Virus record (IMG/VR): IMGVR_UViG_3300032291_000988
Location: 1 to 30,170 of that record
Source: a virus
Strand: one strand, 5' to 3'
Length of the DNA: 30,170 nucleotides
In this document: piece after piece, positions 1 through 7,083 of the stretch
Position numbering within the stretch: the stretch's first letter is position 1
How the letters are laid out: each line of letters opens with the position of its first letter
Notes under the pieces: generated by a model
The model's input: the letters and a program-made list of their open reading frames with translations, nothing else
Told to the model about the DNA's origin: nothing
Database searches by the model: none
Program-made: the position numbers and the translations under genes

Positions 1-690
1 ATAACCGTATACTGCAATGACAATGCGGCAAATATAAAACAAACAAGAATTAAAAGAAGTTGGATGGATAAGACTTATGATGCTCATGCCTATCATTGTT
101 TTCCAATGACAATTGCAAACTCTATTGGGTATGAAATATCTTTTCCAGAAGATATAGTATTTATTTGGGATGGAATAAATAATTCAGAATCTGATCATAT
201 AAAAATACTACAAGGTGAAAGATATTGCTACAACACAAGAGCAAATGCCTCATTAAGTTTTAAAACTGGATTAATTATAAAAAGTACAGAAGACATTACA
301 ATGCTTCATATGCCAGTGCCAAACTATTTTAATGATGGATATCAAGCATTTACAACATTGATAAGTACATCTTTTTATTCTTCAGAGTTTCCAGTTGCTA
401 TAAGGATATTAACTCCTAATAAAAAAATAGTAATAAAAGCAGGAGAGCCTATAGTAACCTTGCTACCAGTATCACTAAGTAAAATGTCTGATGTAGTTAT
501 GAATATAGAAAAATCAAACTTCAACAAAGATTTTTATAATTATGTAAATGAAAAAGTAGACGCTGCAGCAACCATAAATAAGGCTGGCAATTGGACAAAT
601 TGGTATAGAGATGCAACTGATCATAAAGGTAAAAATTTAGGAAATCACGAAGTAAAATCTTTAAAACTAAAAGTTATAGACAACAGATAG
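1..690 (+). CDS. DUF6065-like protein, 5' end cut by the window
   Basis: The reading frame is open from base 1, so the ATG at 64 is probably internal: the residues just upstream (KRSW) join it to give RSWMD, followed by AYHCFPMTIANSIGYEI. From memory this matches the conserved R-x-WMD ... Y-R-C-L-P-L-x-I-A-N ... G-W-E-I core of DUF6065, a family of unknown biochemical function. The C-terminal half (PVPNYF ... IKAGEPIVTLLPVSL) looks like a beta-sandwich or cupin-like half and can be aligned by eye with the same part of the next gene, suggesting an ancient duplication. No catalytic residues or membrane segments are recognised. Six bases separate it from the next gene, so the two are probably cotranscribed. 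The function is unknown; a role in modification or in virion chemistry is only a guess from the neighbours. The family call is moderate. Confidence 0.6.
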   Translation: MTVYCNDNAANIKQTRIKRSWMDKTYDAHAYHCFPMTIANSIGYEISFPEDIVFIWDGINNSESDHIKILQGERYCYNTRANASLSFKTGLIIKSTEDITMLHMPVPNYFNDGYQAFTTLISTSFYSSEFPVAIRILTPNKKIVIKAGEPIVTLLPVSLSKMSDVVMNIEKSNFNKDFYNYVNEKVDAAATINKAGNWTNWYRDATDHKGKNLGNHEVKSLKLKVIDNR

Positions 691-696
691 GAAAAT

Positions 697-1434
697 ATGG
701 ATACGCAAAAAGCAAGGTTTATAAGTAACAAGTCTTGGATGGCTAAGAATTATAAATCTTTATCTACTCCAGTACCATCTTCAAAAAGTCTTCCTGAGTG
801 GTATATAAATGCTGATAGGTACGCTAAAGATCCAGAGGGCAAACACTACAAGGAGCCAGACAATGGTAAAGTCTTAACTTGGAAATCGTGTCATGCTTTT
901 TTTGATGCAATGATAAGTGGGTATATGGTTAATACTCCATGTGATGTTGAGTTTTATTTAAATAAAGAAAATAAGATAGCAGCAAAGATTGAAGATATAA
1001 AAAATAAACATTTCGTTGAGCCAAGAACCCCTATGAATCAGTTTTATCAACCAGATGGGTATTACCTAGATCACTTTGCTTGGTTTATAGATTGGGGAGT
1101 AGAACTGCCAGTAGGATACAGTGCTTTGTATTTAACACCAATGAATAGGTTTGATTTACCCTTTATAAATACACAAGGAATTATAGACAACGACAAAGTA
1201 AACCTATCTGGGTCTCTTCCATTTTTTATCAGAGAAGGTTTTACTGGAGTTATACCTAAAGGAACACCGTTTGTTCAAATATTTCCATTTAAAAGAGAAA
1301 GTTGGGAGCACGAGATAGTTATAGAAGATCCTAGAAAGATAAATGAAAAAAATCAAAAGAATGCAACAAAATATAGGGTGCCAAATGGCGGGGTATATAA
1401 AAATGAAGTTTGGGAAAAAAGAACCTATAGATAA
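697..1434 (+). CDS. DUF6065-related hypothetical protein, probable paralogue of the preceding gene
   Basis: The ATG at 697 has AGGA a few bases upstream. The 245-residue soluble protein has an N-terminal region with P-x-W-Y and then K-S-C-H-A-F-F-D-A-M-I-S-G-Y, a pattern I associate with uncharacterised phage proteins. Its C-terminal half carries YLTPMNRFDLPF, then GFTGVIPKGTPFVQIFPF, which lines up with the PVPNYF ... IKAGEPIVTLLPV segment of the gene before it. The pair therefore looks like tandem, diverged paralogues of a DUF6065-type beta-rich fold. The stop codon directly abuts the stop codon of the convergent sulfotransferase gene (1434/1435), leaving no room for a dedicated terminator. 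There is no signal peptide or membrane segment. The biochemical function is unknown; a real coding gene is very likely, the family link less so. Confidence 0.6.
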   Translation: MDTQKARFISNKSWMAKNYKSLSTPVPSSKSLPEWYINADRYAKDPEGKHYKEPDNGKVLTWKSCHAFFDAMISGYMVNTPCDVEFYLNKENKIAAKIEDIKNKHFVEPRTPMNQFYQPDGYYLDHFAWFIDWGVELPVGYSALYLTPMNRFDLPFINTQGIIDNDKVNLSGSLPFFIREGFTGVIPKGTPFVQIFPFKRESWEHEIVIEDPRKINEKNQKNATKYRVPNGGVYKNEVWEKRTYR

Positions 1435-2190
1435 CTAGATACTATTCCACAATCTAATATCTATATCATTTAAATTTAATATCTTCTGTATTTGACTATC
1501 TGTTATATTATCTTGAATATATTTGCTTAGTTGAGATGTTTGCTTTTTATCCCCTTTATTAGGATGTTTAGAGTATATTAAATTTGTATTAAACTCATCA
1601 TTTAGTAGTTTGTATAGATTGTTCATAAAGGTATCCATATCTTCCATCTTTCCAACTAAGATCATAGAATCCAACATATTCTTTGCATCAATATACTTTG
1701 GTTCTTTTGTATCTATTCCAAAACCAGTACCCCAAAAAAACTTCATTTCTAACGGATCTTCGCTTTGTTTAATATCTTTACCATTCATTTTTATATTATC
1801 TAAAGATACATTTGTTAAAAATCTTGCTTGTAGGTTATTTTTTAAAGCATAGTTCTTTGAGTCATCAAATAACCACTCATCAAATACACGCAAAGAGTCC
1901 TTTTGCCTTATTGGAAAGTAAAGCATTGCAAAATGACTAATAACCCTGGTAACTGGATTTCTGAGGGTGGTAAATGATCTAATGTCTGGATTAATCAATA
2001 GTGGCTCTATACCAAAATGACCATGTATAAAATCAGAGTTTAAAACCATATCTGGATTAGGCTTATCAAACAAGTACATATAATCTATTGAATATTTTTT
2101 AATATTAGTATTCTCTATGCCAGATAAAATTAAATTGTTTTCTATATAACTACCACCAGTTTTAGGAATATGAAAATGATAAAAGGACAT
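1435..2190 (-). CDS. Sulfotransferase family protein (PAPS-dependent type)
   Basis: This 251-residue protein begins with FHIPKTGGS (residues 6-14), the 5'-phosphosulfate-binding loop of PAPS sulfotransferases. It continues with DFIHGHFG (residues 53-60), resembling the catalytic H-G-H region of the Sulfotransfer_2/heparan-sulfate 2-O-sulfotransferase type, and TTLRNPVTRVISHF (residues 74-87), the 3'-phosphate-binding R-x-P ... S element. Members move sulfate from PAPS to a hydroxyl, often on a carbohydrate. The start ATG lies immediately after the stop of the upstream oxygenase gene with no clear ribosome binding site, so translation is probably coupled. Length and motif order look complete. 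The acceptor is unknown; a virion or host surface glycan is plausible given the glycosyltransferase nearby. It cannot be told whether it modifies phage or host material. Confidence 0.8.
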   Translation of the reverse strand: MSFYHFHIPKTGGSYIENNLILSGIENTNIKKYSIDYMYLFDKPNPDMVLNSDFIHGHFGIEPLLINPDIRSFTTLRNPVTRVISHFAMLYFPIRQKDSLRVFDEWLFDDSKNYALKNNLQARFLTNVSLDNIKMNGKDIKQSEDPLEMKFFWGTGFGIDTKEPKYIDAKNMLDSMILVGKMEDMDTFMNNLYKLLNDEFNTNLIYSKHPNKGDKKQTSQLSKYIQDNITDSQIQKILNLNDIDIRLWNSI

Positions 2191-2760
2191 TTATACTAAC
2201 CAGGTTACAACCGAATATCTAATCCCACTAGTTACTTCTTCAACAGAATGTCTATAAATATAGTTTGATGGAAAGATAATAAGTTGATTGCTCTTAGGTT
2301 TAATAGAAACATCAAGTGCTTGAAAAGTTATTGTTCCACCTTCATAGTTATCATTAATAAAGTAAACCAATGATATTGTTCTATCAACACCTGGAACCTG
2401 ATCAACATGCTCATCAAATTTTTGACCAACTCCGTATCTTAAAAGGCTATATTCGTAATGATTTTCTGTATACACTTTATATCTATTAAAGTAATCATTT
2501 ATTGCTGGAGAAAAACTTTGTGTTAACAAGTTAGATAATTTATTTTTTGAGGATGTTTCATCAAGCATATTTTTACTGTACGGTATTCGCGATATGTCAG
2601 TATCTCTAGAATTATAATCTTTAATTGATTTATTGTTTGACAAAACTGCTGCTTTTTTCCACACTAATTCATTATCATTTACTAAACTATCTATTATTGT
2701 GTTATCTTTAATTACATTGTTATACGATACAAGTCCAAGACCTAATTCTTTTATTTCCAC
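2191..2760 (-). CDS. 2-oxoglutarate/Fe(II)-dependent oxygenase (prolyl 4-hydroxylase-like)
   Basis: The protein has the facial triad of the double-stranded beta-helix oxygenases: H118-x-D120 within FDEHVDQVPGVDRTIS and H171 in IYRHSVEEV, with R181 (GIRYSVVTW) as the 2-oxoglutarate carboxylate ligand. The intervening LVYFINDNYEGG and KPKSNQLIIFPS are typical of the P4H/PKHD group. These enzymes hydroxylate a substrate with O2 and 2-oxoglutarate; the substrate here is unknown. At 189 residues it is a short, complete, single-domain form as is common in phages. Translation starts at GTG (2760) with AGGA five bases upstream; the next ATG lies far inside. It is the first gene of a two-gene minus-strand unit with the sulfotransferase, driven by the minus half of a divergent promoter. 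Confidence 0.85.
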   Translation of the reverse strand: MEIKELGLGLVSYNNVIKDNTIIDSLVNDNELVWKKAAVLSNNKSIKDYNSRDTDISRIPYSKNMLDETSSKNKLSNLLTQSFSPAINDYFNRYKVYTENHYEYSLLRYGVGQKFDEHVDQVPGVDRTISLVYFINDNYEGGTITFQALDVSIKPKSNQLIIFPSNYIYRHSVEEVTSGIRYSVVTWLV

Positions 2761-2780: not shown

Positions 2781-2809
2781 ATTATATCATTCTAGGTTAT
2801 GTTTGACAA
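2781..2809 (-). promoter_or_regulatory. Minus-strand promoter of the oxygenase-sulfotransferase pair
   Basis: On the minus strand TTGTCA (bases 2809-2804) and a consensus TATAAT (2786-2781) are separated by exactly 17 bases. The expected transcript start, near 2774, gives a leader of about 14 bases containing AGGA before the GTG start at 2760. The -35 box shares five bases with that of the oppositely oriented promoter. Confidence 0.7.
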
Positions 2810-2831
2810 GCATCTAACAATGCTGTACAAT
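2803..2831 (+). promoter_or_regulatory. Strong plus-strand promoter of the holin-like gene
   Basis: TTGACA (2803-2808) and TACAAT (2826-2831) are separated by exactly 17 bases, a near-consensus housekeeping sigma-factor promoter. Transcription should start near 2838, giving a leader of about 21 bases that carries the AAAGGAGG ribosome binding site (2847-2854). Confidence 0.75.
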
Positions 2832-2858
2832 TGCTTATATGTTCTTAAAGGAGGACAA

Positions 2859-3101
2859 ATGGAATCAGTACTAAATAAAGCAGTTTTGAGTTCCGCTCTT
2901 AACGCTTTTGTAATTACCTTAATTGGTAAGTTTGTTGAATCAGGTGCAGACGTATCTGCTTTAACAGGCGATGTAGTGAGTAACGTACTAAATGCAGCAG
3001 TGACTGCAGCAGCATGGGTAGTTATCCGTGCAGTTAATCCAAAAGATACAAAATTTGGAATCGGTGCTGTAGCACCAAAGACTACTTCCAAAAAGAAATA
3101 A
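2859..3101 (+). CDS. Small two-helix membrane protein, putative holin
   Basis: The start is the ATG at 2859, four bases after AAAGGAGG. An upstream in-frame ATG at 2799 is rejected because it overlaps the promoter. The 80-residue product has two hydrophobic stretches, about residues 8-26 and 39-59, joined by a short polar turn (ESGADVSALTGD), and a lysine-rich tail ending in SKKK. Small size, two helices and a basic C-terminus are what is known of many phage holins, which open the cell membrane so that a muralytic enzyme can act. A membrane-anchored hydrolase gene lies about 1.1 kb away, which supports a lysis role, but no specific family signature is recognised. It is a self-contained transcription unit with its own promoter and terminator, hence probably made in large amounts. 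It could instead be a small membrane protein of another role. Confidence 0.6.
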   Translation: MESVLNKAVLSSALNAFVITLIGKFVESGADVSALTGDVVSNVLNAAVTAAAWVVIRAVNPKDTKFGIGAVAPKTTSKKK

Positions 3102-3156: not shown

Positions 3157-4248
3157 ATGTCAAAACCTACCCTTTGTTATTTAACGTATGATTGGTCATG
3201 GGGAACCAAACCACTACAGCCTAATGGTTGTGCATGGTATCGATGCTTTCTTCCAATGGAAGAGTTAAAGAAAAAAAACTGGGAAGTTGGAATGGGATTT
3301 CCTGGCTTTCACCCAGAACATGGATTTGGATTATTAATACCTGAAAAAAAAGCGGTACATGGTTGGGATATTGTTTTATTAAAACTAATGATGTTAGATA
3401 GTATTGTTGAAAACATTCCAAGAGCCAAAGAAACTGGTCAAAAAATAGTTATTGATATTGATGATCACCATGCTGGACTAGAGCCAACAAATATGGCCTA
3501 CATAGCAACAGACCCAAAAACTAATCCAAAAAATAATAGAGAACACTACTTTAAATCAATGGAGTTAGCAGACGCACTTATTACATCAACCCCATTCTTA
3601 TATGATTATTATAAAAAACAATATCCAGATAAACCAATATATCTTGTTCGTAATGGTGTTGACCCACAATATTTCGGAATGAGAAAAGATAAGTCTGGTG
3701 CATTTCCAACAATTGGATGGGTTGGTGCAACCCCTTGGCGTTCAAGTGATTTAGAAACTTTAAATCCTTTTGTAGGAGAGTTTATTGAAAAAAATAAACT
3801 TAGATTTCATCATTCTGGATCTATCATTAATGCTCCAACAGTTCAAGAACAAATGGGTATTCCTGTAAAGAGTTTTTCATCTCAACCAATGAAACCAATA
3901 TTAACTTACAAAGAATTGTTTAATAGAATTGACATTGGACTAGTTCCACTAAATACTGTTGAATTTAATCGTGCAAAATCTTTTATTAAAGGACTTGAAT
4001 ATGCTGCTGCTGGAGTGCCTTTCATTGCAGAAGATATGGAAGAATATTCATACCTTCACAGTGAATATGGACTTGGCAGGGTAGCAAAAACAAAAGACCA
4101 ATGGTTATCTCATTTAGAAGATTTAAAGAATCCAAAAACAAGAAATATTGAAAGACAGAATAACTATAAACTATTAAAAGAATTTCATACTATGGAAGTA
4201 AGAGGGCAAGATTGGGATGAAGTTTTTAGAGAGATTAGAGAACTTTAG
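3157..4248 (+). CDS. Glycosyltransferase, GT-B fold (GT4-like)
   Basis: The 363-residue protein has the two-domain layout of GT-B glycosyltransferases. The N-terminal half carries NGCAWYRCFLPMEEL and then VIDIDDHHAGLEPTN, a D-x-D-D segment seen in many phage-encoded members. The linker has VRNGVDPQYF, the usual entry into the C-terminal domain, followed by IGWVGATPWRSSD. The nucleotide-sugar site is FNRAKSFIKGLEYAAAGVPFIA (about residues 269-290), corresponding to the E-x7-E loop region of GT4 enzymes. It should transfer a sugar from an activated donor to an unknown acceptor, acting in the cytoplasm; virion protein or host surface glycosylation are both possible. It lies just after the holin terminator and its end overlaps the convergent hydrolase gene by four bases. 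No strong ribosome binding site is seen (GAAAGAG only). Confidence 0.85.
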   Translation: MSKPTLCYLTYDWSWGTKPLQPNGCAWYRCFLPMEELKKKNWEVGMGFPGFHPEHGFGLLIPEKKAVHGWDIVLLKLMMLDSIVENIPRAKETGQKIVIDIDDHHAGLEPTNMAYIATDPKTNPKNNREHYFKSMELADALITSTPFLYDYYKKQYPDKPIYLVRNGVDPQYFGMRKDKSGAFPTIGWVGATPWRSSDLETLNPFVGEFIEKNKLRFHHSGSIINAPTVQEQMGIPVKSFSSQPMKPILTYKELFNRIDIGLVPLNTVEFNRAKSFIKGLEYAAAGVPFIAEDMEEYSYLHSEYGLGRVAKTKDQWLSHLEDLKNPKTRNIERQNNYKLLKEFHTMEVRGQDWDEVFREIREL

Positions 4249-5142: not shown

Positions 5143-7083
5143 ATGTCATTTATTAACGAAAACGGATCAATCACAGATCCATATAAGAATTTTATTCACA
5201 TCTCAAGATACGCAAGATGGATTGAAGATAAAGGTCGCAGAGAAACCTGGGTAGAAACTGTAGATCGTTATGTCAACTTTATGAAAGATCATTTAATATT
5301 AAATTATGGCTATAGCCCAAATGCAAAAATATTTGACGAAGTAAGAGATGCAATTTTAAATCATAAAATTATGCCTTCAATGAGAGCCTTGATGAGTGCT
5401 GGTCCAGCATTAGAACGAGATCACATCGCAGCATACAACTGTTCTTTTATTGCCATAGATAGTCTAAGAGCATTTGACGAAGCAATGTACATTTTAATGA
5501 ATGGAACAGGAGTTGGATTTAGCGTTGAGTCTAAATATGTTGACGAACTTCCTATTATTGCTGAATCATTTAATCAAACAGAAACTACTATTATTGTAGA
5601 AGATTCTAAACTTGGTTGGGCAAAAGCATTTAAAGAATTAATTGCATTACTATCACAAGGACAAGTTCCAAAGTGGGATATGTCAAAAGTTCGTCCAGCA
5701 GGTGCTAGATTAAAAACTTTTGGTGGTCGTGCTTCTGGACCTGGGCCACTTAGTGCATTATTTACATTTACAGTTGACACATTTAAAAATTCTGCAGGAC
5801 GTAGATTAAAACCAATTGAAGCACATGACTTAATGTGTAAGGTTGGAGAGGTTGTGGTTGTTGGCGGAGTACGCCGTTCTGCATTAATCTCACTTTCTAA
5901 TCTTGATGACTTTGAAATGGCCAAGGCTAAAAGTGGCTCTTGGTGGGAAAAAGAATCACAAAGATCATTAGCAAATAATTCTGCTGTATACAACACAAAG
6001 CCAAATACTGCTCAGTTCTTACGTGAGTGGAGAAACTTATATGAATCAAAGTCTGGTGAAAGAGGAATTTATAATATTGACTCAGTTCGTAAACACGTTG
6101 AGTCATTTGGAAGAAGAGACGCTTCCTTAGTGGCTGGAACAAATCCTTGTGGTGAAATTATTCTTCGCCCAAATGAATTTTGTAATTTAACAGAAGTGAT
6201 TATTTCTGCAGAAGACATAAAAGAAGATTTAATAGAAAAGGTCAGACTTGCTACTATACTAGGAACATGGCAATCTACCTTGACTAACTTTAAATATATT
6301 AGAAAAACATGGAAAGATAATTGTGAAGAAGAAAGACTTCTTGGAGTATCTTTAACAGGAATCTACGGAAACAAGATTACTTCAACTGCAGGAAAAGCAT
6401 TAGAACAGTTATTGACTGATATGAGATTAGAGTCAGTAAGAATTAATGACGTAGAAGCAAAAAAATTAAACATTAATCCTTCTGTCTCAATTACTTGTGT
6501 TAAGCCTTCTGGTACTGTAAGTCAATTGGTCGGGGTCTCAAGCGGTATTCATCCATGGTATTCAGAATACTACATTAGAAGTGTTAGAGGATCAAACAAT
6601 GATCCACTTACTCAATTCTTAAAAGATTCTGGAATTCCAAATGAACCAGATGTTATGAAGCCTGATGAAACAACAGTATTTTATTTTCCTCAAAAGGCTC
6701 CAAAGAACGCAACAATAACAAAAGATTTAACAGCCATAGATCATCTAGAAATGTGGAAAATTTATAGAACATGCTGGACAGAACATAACCCTAGCGTTAC
6801 TGTTAATGTTCACGAAGATGAATGGTTAAGAGTAGGTGCATGGGTTTTTGATAACTTTGATTCAATTGGTGGTATATCTTTCTTACCATCGAGTGAGCAT
6901 ACTTATAAGCAAGCCCCATATCAAGAAATTTCTAAAGATGAATATGAAGAATGGGTAAAGAAATCTCCTTCAAATATTCAATGGGAAATGCTATCTATTT
7001 ATGAAAAAGAAGATGGAACTACTGGCACACAAGAATTATCCTGTGTTGCTGGGGTATGTGAAATAGTCGATATTACTAAATAG
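5143..7083 (+). CDS. nrdJ: Class II (adenosylcobalamin-dependent) ribonucleotide reductase, monomeric type
   Basis: The 646-residue protein reduces ribonucleotides to deoxyribonucleotides for phage DNA synthesis in the cytoplasm. Its key residues match the monomeric Lactobacillus leichmannii RTPR type: C100 (AAYNCSF, the C119 equivalent), N334-P-C336-G-E338 and C347 (N406/C408/E410/C419, with the same 11-residue spacing between the two Cys), and a C-terminal swinging pair C634-x4-C639 (C731/C736, same spacing). MNGTGVGFSVES and KPSGTVSQL are further barrel signatures. It is shorter than the 739-residue model enzyme, as is common in phage versions. There is no intein or frameshift. No glycyl-radical site or small-subunit gene is present, consistent with a B12-dependent mechanism, so the host must supply or import cobalamin. 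The gene is monocistronic with its own promoter. ATG at 5143, AGGAG 11 bases upstream. Confidence 0.93.
   Translation: MSFINENGSITDPYKNFIHISRYARWIEDKGRRETWVETVDRYVNFMKDHLILNYGYSPNAKIFDEVRDAILNHKIMPSMRALMSAGPALERDHIAAYNCSFIAIDSLRAFDEAMYILMNGTGVGFSVESKYVDELPIIAESFNQTETTIIVEDSKLGWAKAFKELIALLSQGQVPKWDMSKVRPAGARLKTFGGRASGPGPLSALFTFTVDTFKNSAGRRLKPIEAHDLMCKVGEVVVVGGVRRSALISLSNLDDFEMAKAKSGSWWEKESQRSLANNSAVYNTKPNTAQFLREWRNLYESKSGERGIYNIDSVRKHVESFGRRDASLVAGTNPCGEIILRPNEFCNLTEVIISAEDIKEDLIEKVRLATILGTWQSTLTNFKYIRKTWKDNCEEERLLGVSLTGIYGNKITSTAGKALEQLLTDMRLESVRINDVEAKKLNINPSVSITCVKPSGTVSQLVGVSSGIHPWYSEYYIRSVRGSNNDPLTQFLKDSGIPNEPDVMKPDETTVFYFPQKAPKNATITKDLTAIDHLEMWKIYRTCWTEHNPSVTVNVHEDEWLRVGAWVFDNFDSIGGISFLPSSEHTYKQAPYQEISKDEYEEWVKKSPSNIQWEMLSIYEKEDGTTGTQELSCVAGVCEIVDITK

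Follow-up and report, generated by a model that had tools for sequence, protein, structure and literature searches.

A truncated phage array of DUF6065 and 2-oxoglutarate oxygenase genes: a possible fibre-modification cassette

The window analysed here, the linear, 30,170-base IMG/VR virus record IMGVR_UViG_3300032291_000988, begins with two adjacent genes for DUF6065-type proteins (DUFa and DUFb, the first and second of the pair), followed by genes for a sulfotransferase (ST) and a 2-oxoglutarate (2OG)-Fe(II) oxygenase and, further on, a glycosyltransferase (GT). In related viral loci, DUF6065 pairs lie within tight arrays of several oxygenase genes, usually next to a repetitive, fibre-type protein, and both DUF6065 proteins of the window are predicted to adopt a dUTPase-like fold. 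The chances appear about even that the left end of the window is the truncated end of a cassette that modifies phage fibres, with DUF6065 as its dUTPase-fold partner. The observation is part of something larger than was seen by an earlier note on this DNA, which had suggested a set of enzymes that hydroxylate, glycosylate and sulfate a surface substrate.

Association of DUF6065 with oxygenase arrays

The DUF-anchored set comprises the best 80 of 109 viral loci encoding DUFb relatives (the related-locus scans each kept the best 80). Oxygenases were present in every one of these loci (80/80, and 49/49 after dereplication), and in 75 an adjacent DUFa/DUFb pair lies within a tight, same-strand oxygenase array. 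The profiles used to detect DUF, oxygenase and halogenase genes were built partly from the counted loci; checks against PF13640 are independent, and all eight array open reading frames (ORFs) tried scored over its cut-off. When the window's own oxygenase was used as the query, 77 new loci were obtained, of which 74 carried DUF6065 and 62 a Pro-rich ORF. Relatives of the window's portal protein served as a lineage control. Among 80 portal-anchored loci, ten had an oxygenase and one a DUF gene, a weak baseline because many of these loci stop short of the slot in question, and 26 whole records chosen from them provide a fairer one. Seven of the 26 encode a close DUFb and all seven have at least four PF13640 genes, four of them (G154, G155, G156 and G159) scoring nearly alike and not being independent; among the remaining 19, an oxygenase was found in one, near a contig edge (Fisher p 1.2e-5 versus the DUFb-bearing records). 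In five further portal-chosen records, a distant DUF6065 occurs and PF13640 genes are absent. The earlier note had called for a search for co-occurrence beyond chance, and this linked DUF6065 strongly with 2OG oxygenases; the independent distribution that it named as grounds for rejecting the grouping is seen for GT and ST, as described below, and not for the DUF genes and oxygenases.

In the relatives, an Fn3-containing, (F/Y)FPP-repeat protein of fibre type comes first, in some cases with a C-terminal intein/Hint-like domain; DUFa and DUFb follow it, with one or two oxygenases ahead of the pair and three to five behind it, and nearly all of these genes share a strand and overlap or touch their neighbours. 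Intergenic gaps within the arrays (n = 490) have a median of −1, with 472 at most 25 bp, and the number of contiguous same-strand oxygenases has a median of six, with three or more in 73 of 75 arrays. Across 320 unique oxygenases, the HxD motif is intact in 320, the second His in 319 and the Lys/Arg in 317. Their tree groups mostly by array position and not by genome (position U1, 51 sequences from 51 loci; U2, 44 from 44; D1, 56 from 55), with 44 oxygenases outside the labelled positions marked X, and the 2OG-site residue is Lys in 88/88 U1 and U2 sequences and Arg in 49/50 of D1. Pairwise ratios of nonsynonymous to synonymous substitution rates (dN/dS) were 0.02–0.27 in orthologous comparisons, indicating purifying selection, and one D1 pair had no amino-acid change; two L072/L073 comparisons were set aside, that of DUFa (0.71, different paralogues compared) and that of D3, which gave no dS. 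Several distinct oxygenases are thus maintained side by side. In one array oxygenase (L025:11407-12144), the N-terminus carries a CDGSH-like, iron-binding segment that scores under the cut-off (4.7e-6), and an extra DUF6065 copy occurs outside the main pair in L014, L064, L072, L078 and L079.

Genes at the left end of the window

The four ORFs and the GT described in the earlier note are all present where it had placed them, and their families are as it had described:

1–690, plus strand: DUFa, DUF6065 protein (PF19541, 6e-28), 5′ end open, relatives a few residues longer
697–1434, plus strand: DUFb, diverged DUF6065 paralogue (phrog_7084, 3e-35)
1435–2190, minus strand: ST, Sulfotransfer_2, optional member (PF03567, 4.7e-5, 24.1 bits)
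2191–2760, minus strand: 2OG-Fe(II) oxygenase, prolyl-hydroxylase-like, GTG start (PF13640, 1e-16)
2761–2858, strand not applicable: intergenic region with two divergent promoter-like sites (11-of-12 match each)
3157–4248, plus strand: GT of the phage backbone, judged to be outside the cassette (phrog_7162, 3e-27)

Since these genes lie at the start of the contig, DUFa is cut and everything upstream of it is lost. The stop codons of DUFb and ST abut, the two genes being tail to tail, and the TAA of the oxygenase directly precedes the ATG of ST. The divergent control that had been proposed for the ST–oxygenase pair is plausible only, because, while two 11-of-12 promoter-like sites (2781–2831) do point away from each other, shuffled sequence contains more sites of this kind (mean 18.6) than the region does (10), so that there is no excess.

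The window oxygenase matches PF13640 (2OG-FeII_Oxy_3) at 61.9 bits, above the cut-off, and retains the H, D, H and R of the HxD...H triad and 2OG-binding Arg. Its nearest solved structures are prolyl 4-hydroxylases/EGLN (E 0.0017), and in the tree it joins a three-member clade with L058:14717-15274 and L029:1-537 (support 0.999). Viral systems of the prolyl-hydroxylase type include Chlorella virus P4H and the collagen-modifying enzymes of mimivirus. Likenesses to the prolyl 4-hydroxylase/EGLN type (PF13640) include the HxD...H and Lys/Arg residues, the nearest structures, and the location of oxygenase genes beside Pro-rich or collagen-like proteins; the present arrays differ in that up to eight distinct enzymes are arrayed with a dUTPase-fold pair, in bacteriophages, and proline is a putative substrate. 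In L005-type relatives, ST is tail to tail with the last array oxygenase, and four oxygenases lie between it and DUFb. These four are absent from the window, where ST is instead tail to tail with DUFb and a different oxygenase, coupled to ST, takes their place.

ST itself is an optional member. It scores just above the Sulfotransfer_2 cut-off (24.1 bits against 22) and resembles PF03567/phrog_3347 proteins in that narrow Pfam match and in two motifs read from the sequence by eye, HIPKTGG and LRNPVTR, which we take to be 3′-phosphoadenosine-5′-phosphosulfate (PAPS) motifs; a sequence search found no solved structure for it. ST-like genes, about 50% identical, are convergent to the array in L002, L003, L005, L007 and L012. 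They were seen in 6/80 DUF-anchored loci, in 4/120 repeat-anchored loci (among the matches listed) and in 1/77 oxygenase-anchored loci, with two further cases at motif level (L376 and L393). A scan anchored on ST recovered no relative, and is insensitive because it missed the copies in those five loci.

For the GT, the Pfam match is below cut-off. A block of GT, SLT, ribonucleotide reductase and structural genes is kept in all portal loci that reach it, with or without DUF, ST and oxygenase genes. In L213, the portal protein is 100% and the GT 97% identical to those of the window, and DUF, ST and oxygenase genes are all missing, the slot being occupied by Gly-rich and other tail-type genes instead of the array. 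From this comparison, the array occupies a variable slot on the fibre side and the GT counts as a backbone gene, so that its proposed membership of the cassette is not borne out. The suggested hydroxylate–glycosylate–sulfate set is therefore only partly supported: DUF6065 and oxygenase belong together, the GT is backbone and ST is optional. Modification of host or virion glycans by such a set, as first proposed, is improbable in our estimation. The GT and ST genes do lie nearby, GT-like genes follow window-type oxygenases in L058 (by eye) and L318 (Glyco_transf_61), and the motif-level ST-like genes of L376 and L393 are near DUF6065 and an oxygenase, but the GT remains where DUF, oxygenase and ST are absent, and ST accompanies few of the DUF-anchored arrays (6/80).

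Proline-rich repeat proteins upstream of the array

Where contigs reach far enough, the array is usually preceded by a gene for a Pro-rich protein with PPFFPPFFPP-type, (F/Y)FPP repeats. Fn3 was found in 37 of 40 sampled Pro-rich proteins, and intein/Hint-type profiles also matched (Intein_splicing 9, PT-HINT 4, Hint 3, possibly overlapping). The link was tested independently by a repeat-anchored scan of viral contigs with repeat DNA, which gave at least 120 stretches; after leaving out 22 of 120 with no repeat inside an ORF and 36 with less than 3 kb downstream, 62 remained. Among the matches listed, 52 of these had a same-strand downstream oxygenase and 45 a DUF6065 gene, and after dereplication and removal of loci shared with the DUF set, again with 3 kb or more downstream, the figures were 45/56 and 39/56. 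The repeat protein had no match in cultured phages by BLAST, which masks low complexity. The closest relatives of the window oxygenase come one or two genes after other Pro-rich proteins; these carry PAPVTPPVSP repeats in L058, where the C-terminus is intein/Hint-like by eye, PVTP repeats in L318, and TPPA repeats with a weak Hint match in L363.

The cassette probably modifies the phage's own fibres, because the oxygenases and DUF pair adjoin repetitive, tail-fibre-like proteins, and the Fn3/Pro-rich, Gly-rich and collagen-like neighbours point to these fibre proteins over cell-surface glycans. The Fn3-repeat-Hint protein could instead be the precursor of a secreted, heavily tailored, natural-product-like peptide made during infection and no part of the virion. 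Oxygenases and halogenases are typical tailoring enzymes, and the intein/Hint-type domains of some repeat proteins could release a peptide; the prevalence of Fn3 (37/40) and the place among tail-type genes suit virion parts better, and of the explanations considered here this one seems the most doubtful.

Predicted fold of the DUF6065 proteins

DUFa scores 98.4 bits against DUF6065 (PF19541), well over the curated cut-off of 26.6, and DUFb has no Pfam match and does not reach that cut-off. Both match phrog_7084 (DUFb at 3e-35, DUFa at 4e-8), and the profiles of the two families are related (hhalign probability 95.4, E 1.7e-8), and because of these two links DUFb is taken as a diverged DUF6065 relative. 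Structure prediction of the two proteins, another check proposed in the earlier note, gave confident AlphaFold2 models (pLDDT 84 for DUFa and 87 for DUFb) with a dUTPase-like fold for both. For DUFa, the best 50 Foldseek rows were all dUTPases (top E 6e-5), and VIA gave Z 10.3, one row covering 112 residues at 2.5 Å; for DUFb, the top Foldseek rows were all dUTPase/dCTP deaminase (best E 0.005), and VIA gave Z 9.6 with 119 residues at 2.7 Å. Both predicted models thus have the dUTPase (beta-clip) fold. The GIIDND...GTPxxQ pattern of DUFb (G-x-[IV]-D; G-T-P-x-x-Q) is similar to dUTPase motifs 3 and 4, and an Asp aligned with the catalytic Asp of motif 3 is found in 173/193 DUFb-type sequences, placed by sequence pattern and not by superposed residues. 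The motif-3 columns of DUFa have Ser/Thr in place of Asp (34 relatives), so that DUFa looks like a non-catalytic partner that has lost the aspartate. Together, the models, the Foldseek and VIA matches and the Asp pattern lead us to predict a dUTPase fold for the DUF6065 family. It differs from known members of the dUTPase/dCTP deaminase superfamily in the missing Asp of DUFa, in that no motif 5 was recognised by eye at the C-terminus, in that neither protein matches PF00692 (dUTPase; hmmscan, E up to 1), and in that most DUF6065 loci are not in a nucleotide-metabolism context. A PDB sequence search with the DUF profiles gave nothing significant, the weak top matches of DUFa being viral dUTPase (E 1), and DUFa had no match among cultured phages.

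These features raise an alternative, in which DUFb functions as an enzyme of the dUTPase/dCTP-deaminase type and the targets of the oxygenases are DNA bases or nucleotides, as for AlkB or TET/JBP. The predicted fold and the retained Asp of DUFb fit this, as do the thymidylate synthase gene beside a halovirus DUF6065 and the B12-dependent-type ribonucleotide reductase 2.4 kb away in the window, and the legend of a published figure puts forward DNA repair as a role of 2OG enzymes in phages. Against it stand the lost Asp of DUFa, the position of the array in a tail-fibre slot away from replication genes, its association with Pro-rich proteins and, elsewhere among phages, with flavin halogenases, and the mere E 0.059 of the window oxygenase's Tet_JBP match; we consider nucleic-acid modification unlikely. 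The candidate idea that DUF6065 replaces the host dUTPase, suggested when 0/7 DUFb-bearing genomes gave an above-cut-off PF00692 match, was dropped, as this absence is uninformative in a family where such a match occurs in 2 of 137 genomes and is missing from the other 135.

Halogenase loci, cultured phages and bacteria

Three of the five records with a distant DUF6065 (L399, L400 and L401) were opened. In the slot of the first two, a flavin-halogenase-like gene and DUF6065, in one or two copies, follow tandem Gly-rich, fibre-type ORFs, and L401 has DUF6065 and no halogenase within the stretch seen. Halogenases of the flavin-dependent type lie beside DUF6065 at L399:6145-9041, L400:4247-7933, L321:5465-9331 (where Pfam confirmed Trp_halogenase), L462 and L409. 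A halogenase-anchored scan (best 80 of 379 confirmed loci) found DUF6065 in 26/80 and oxygenases in 29/80; after dereplication, 20 of 55 had DUF6065, 12 of these within two genes on the same strand.

Cultured cyanophages show a similar arrangement. In Syn10, Gly-rich fibre-type proteins are followed by two halogenases, gp43, and a run of ORFs that includes several 2OG/JmjC enzymes (L488:10577-17667, in which gp52 matches DUF6445), and gp43 is DUF6065-like (hhalign probability 95.7, E 1e-8; profile E 1e-19). A Syn10 halogenase is reportedly VirX1. In S-CREM1, the order is a collagen-like protein, a halogenase, DUF6065 (identified by profile and annotated as 'triphosphate nucleotidohydrolase'), eight 2OG genes and JmjC; in P-TIM40, two halogenases precede DUF6065. 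A virion proteome of S-CREM1, comprising 14 detected proteins, is reported in PMC9964418. Fifteen cultured-phage records match gp43, and in nine the match overlaps an annotated halogenase gene. Sf-CH11 and S-WAM1 have halogenase and 2OG genes beside structural/fibre genes, in a stretch where no DUF6065 was detected.

The 2OG-oxygenase and tryptophan-halogenase 'auxiliary metabolic genes' of cyanophages (S-CREM1, S-SCSM1, Syn9/Syn10) are of the same enzyme families as those considered here, and those of Syn10 and S-CREM1 share the fibre-side position and the DUF6065 protein. They differ in that the publications, as far as their text was available, do not group them with DUF6065 or fibre proteins into one unit, and in that the freshwater arrays mostly lack a halogenase and have DUFa plus DUFb. 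An auxiliary metabolic role, in which the oxygenases alter host 2OG pools or small molecules and the fibre-side position is an insertion hot spot, follows the interpretation in the available text of PMC3037559, PMC9602691 and PMC9964418, and would suit a slot that is hypervariable among the window's relatives. Ordered, non-interchangeable orthologue groups, overlapping ORFs and invariant catalytic residues suit specific substrates better, and a hot spot leaves the fixed DUF pair and repeat protein unexplained. This role is no more probable than nucleic-acid modification, and the two are the strongest rivals to fibre modification.

DUF6065 also occurs in bacteria. On Sinorhizobium plasmids, an autotransporter gene ends about 10 bp before the DUF6065 gene starts, and the autotransporter of S. 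medicae has a poly-Pro linker; in Ochrobactrum the gene is directly downstream of an outer-membrane-type protein with collagen-like repeats (these rhizobial and Ochrobactrum plasmid loci are L490, L491 and L492). Tandem DUFb-type genes are found in gammaproteobacterial metagenome-assembled genomes (MAGs; L089:7977-9505, L091:8001-9485), and the gammaproteobacterial DUF6065 neighbours (G175 and the MAG loci) include no consistent partner.

Proposed mechanism

The co-occurrence and order of the genes, the purifying selection, the intact catalytic residues and the dUTPase-like predicted fold are computed results; for fibre modification, we infer a substrate, a fibre location, a scaffold role and an order of steps as follows. 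During virion assembly, the oxygenases would add hydroxyl groups to proline or aromatic residues in the repetitive fibre protein encoded next to them. DUFa and DUFb, one subunit lacking the catalytic aspartate, may assemble into an oligomeric scaffold from which the repeats are offered to the oxygenases or, in other phages, to flavin halogenases. The phage of the window would use a prolyl-hydroxylase-like enzyme coupled to ST, the four array oxygenases beside DUFb being missing. More tentatively, and with the odds somewhat against so broad a claim, tailed phages of lakes and seas may share an oxidative maturation of fibres in which a dUTPase fold, converted into a paired DUF6065 scaffold, feeds repetitive Pro-, Gly- or collagen-rich fibres to oxygenases and halogenases, and most cyanophage 2OG and halogenase 'metabolic genes', including the Syn10 halogenases, could be modifiers of virion proteins.

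Several observations weigh against fibre modification. The repeat protein is not in the window, since the contig starts at DUFa; the window oxygenase falls outside the array orthologue groups; and 10 of the 62 repeat loci (among the matches listed) have neither oxygenase nor DUF. The Foldseek E of DUFb is only 0.005, and DUF6065 adjoins thymidylate synthase in a halovirus. Among dereplicated halogenase loci, 35/55 lack DUF6065, and the halogenase of S-B64 lies among replication genes and not in the fibre region. DUFb occurs without oxygenases in gammaproteobacterial MAGs, and autotransporters often have Pro-rich linkers anyway. Cyanophage oxygenases have, moreover, been published as metabolic genes in the three papers cited above.

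A literature search, in which most subscription journals were not covered, found no paper that mentions DUF6065 and, in sources available partly as full text, none that ties phage oxygenases or halogenases to it and no report of hydroxylated or halogenated phage fibres. The link to fibre genes and to a predicted dUTPase fold yields a hypothesis that can be tested in the cultured phages Syn9/Syn10 and S-CREM1, assigns a DUF family a predicted fold, and raises the possibility of a new layer of receptor-binding diversity, based on chemical rather than sequence variation.

Other features of the window

The major capsid protein of the window is about 41% identical to its Streptomyces phage counterparts, and the B12-type ribonucleotide reductase about 62% identical to that of Streptomyces phages. 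The latter gene (5143–7083) lies between lysis-type and structural genes and is kept in the portal relatives that reach it. A small, conserved ORF (2799–3101) precedes the GT in a lysis-type position, beside the SLT gene, and the start used by its relatives is a Met that corresponds to position 2859.

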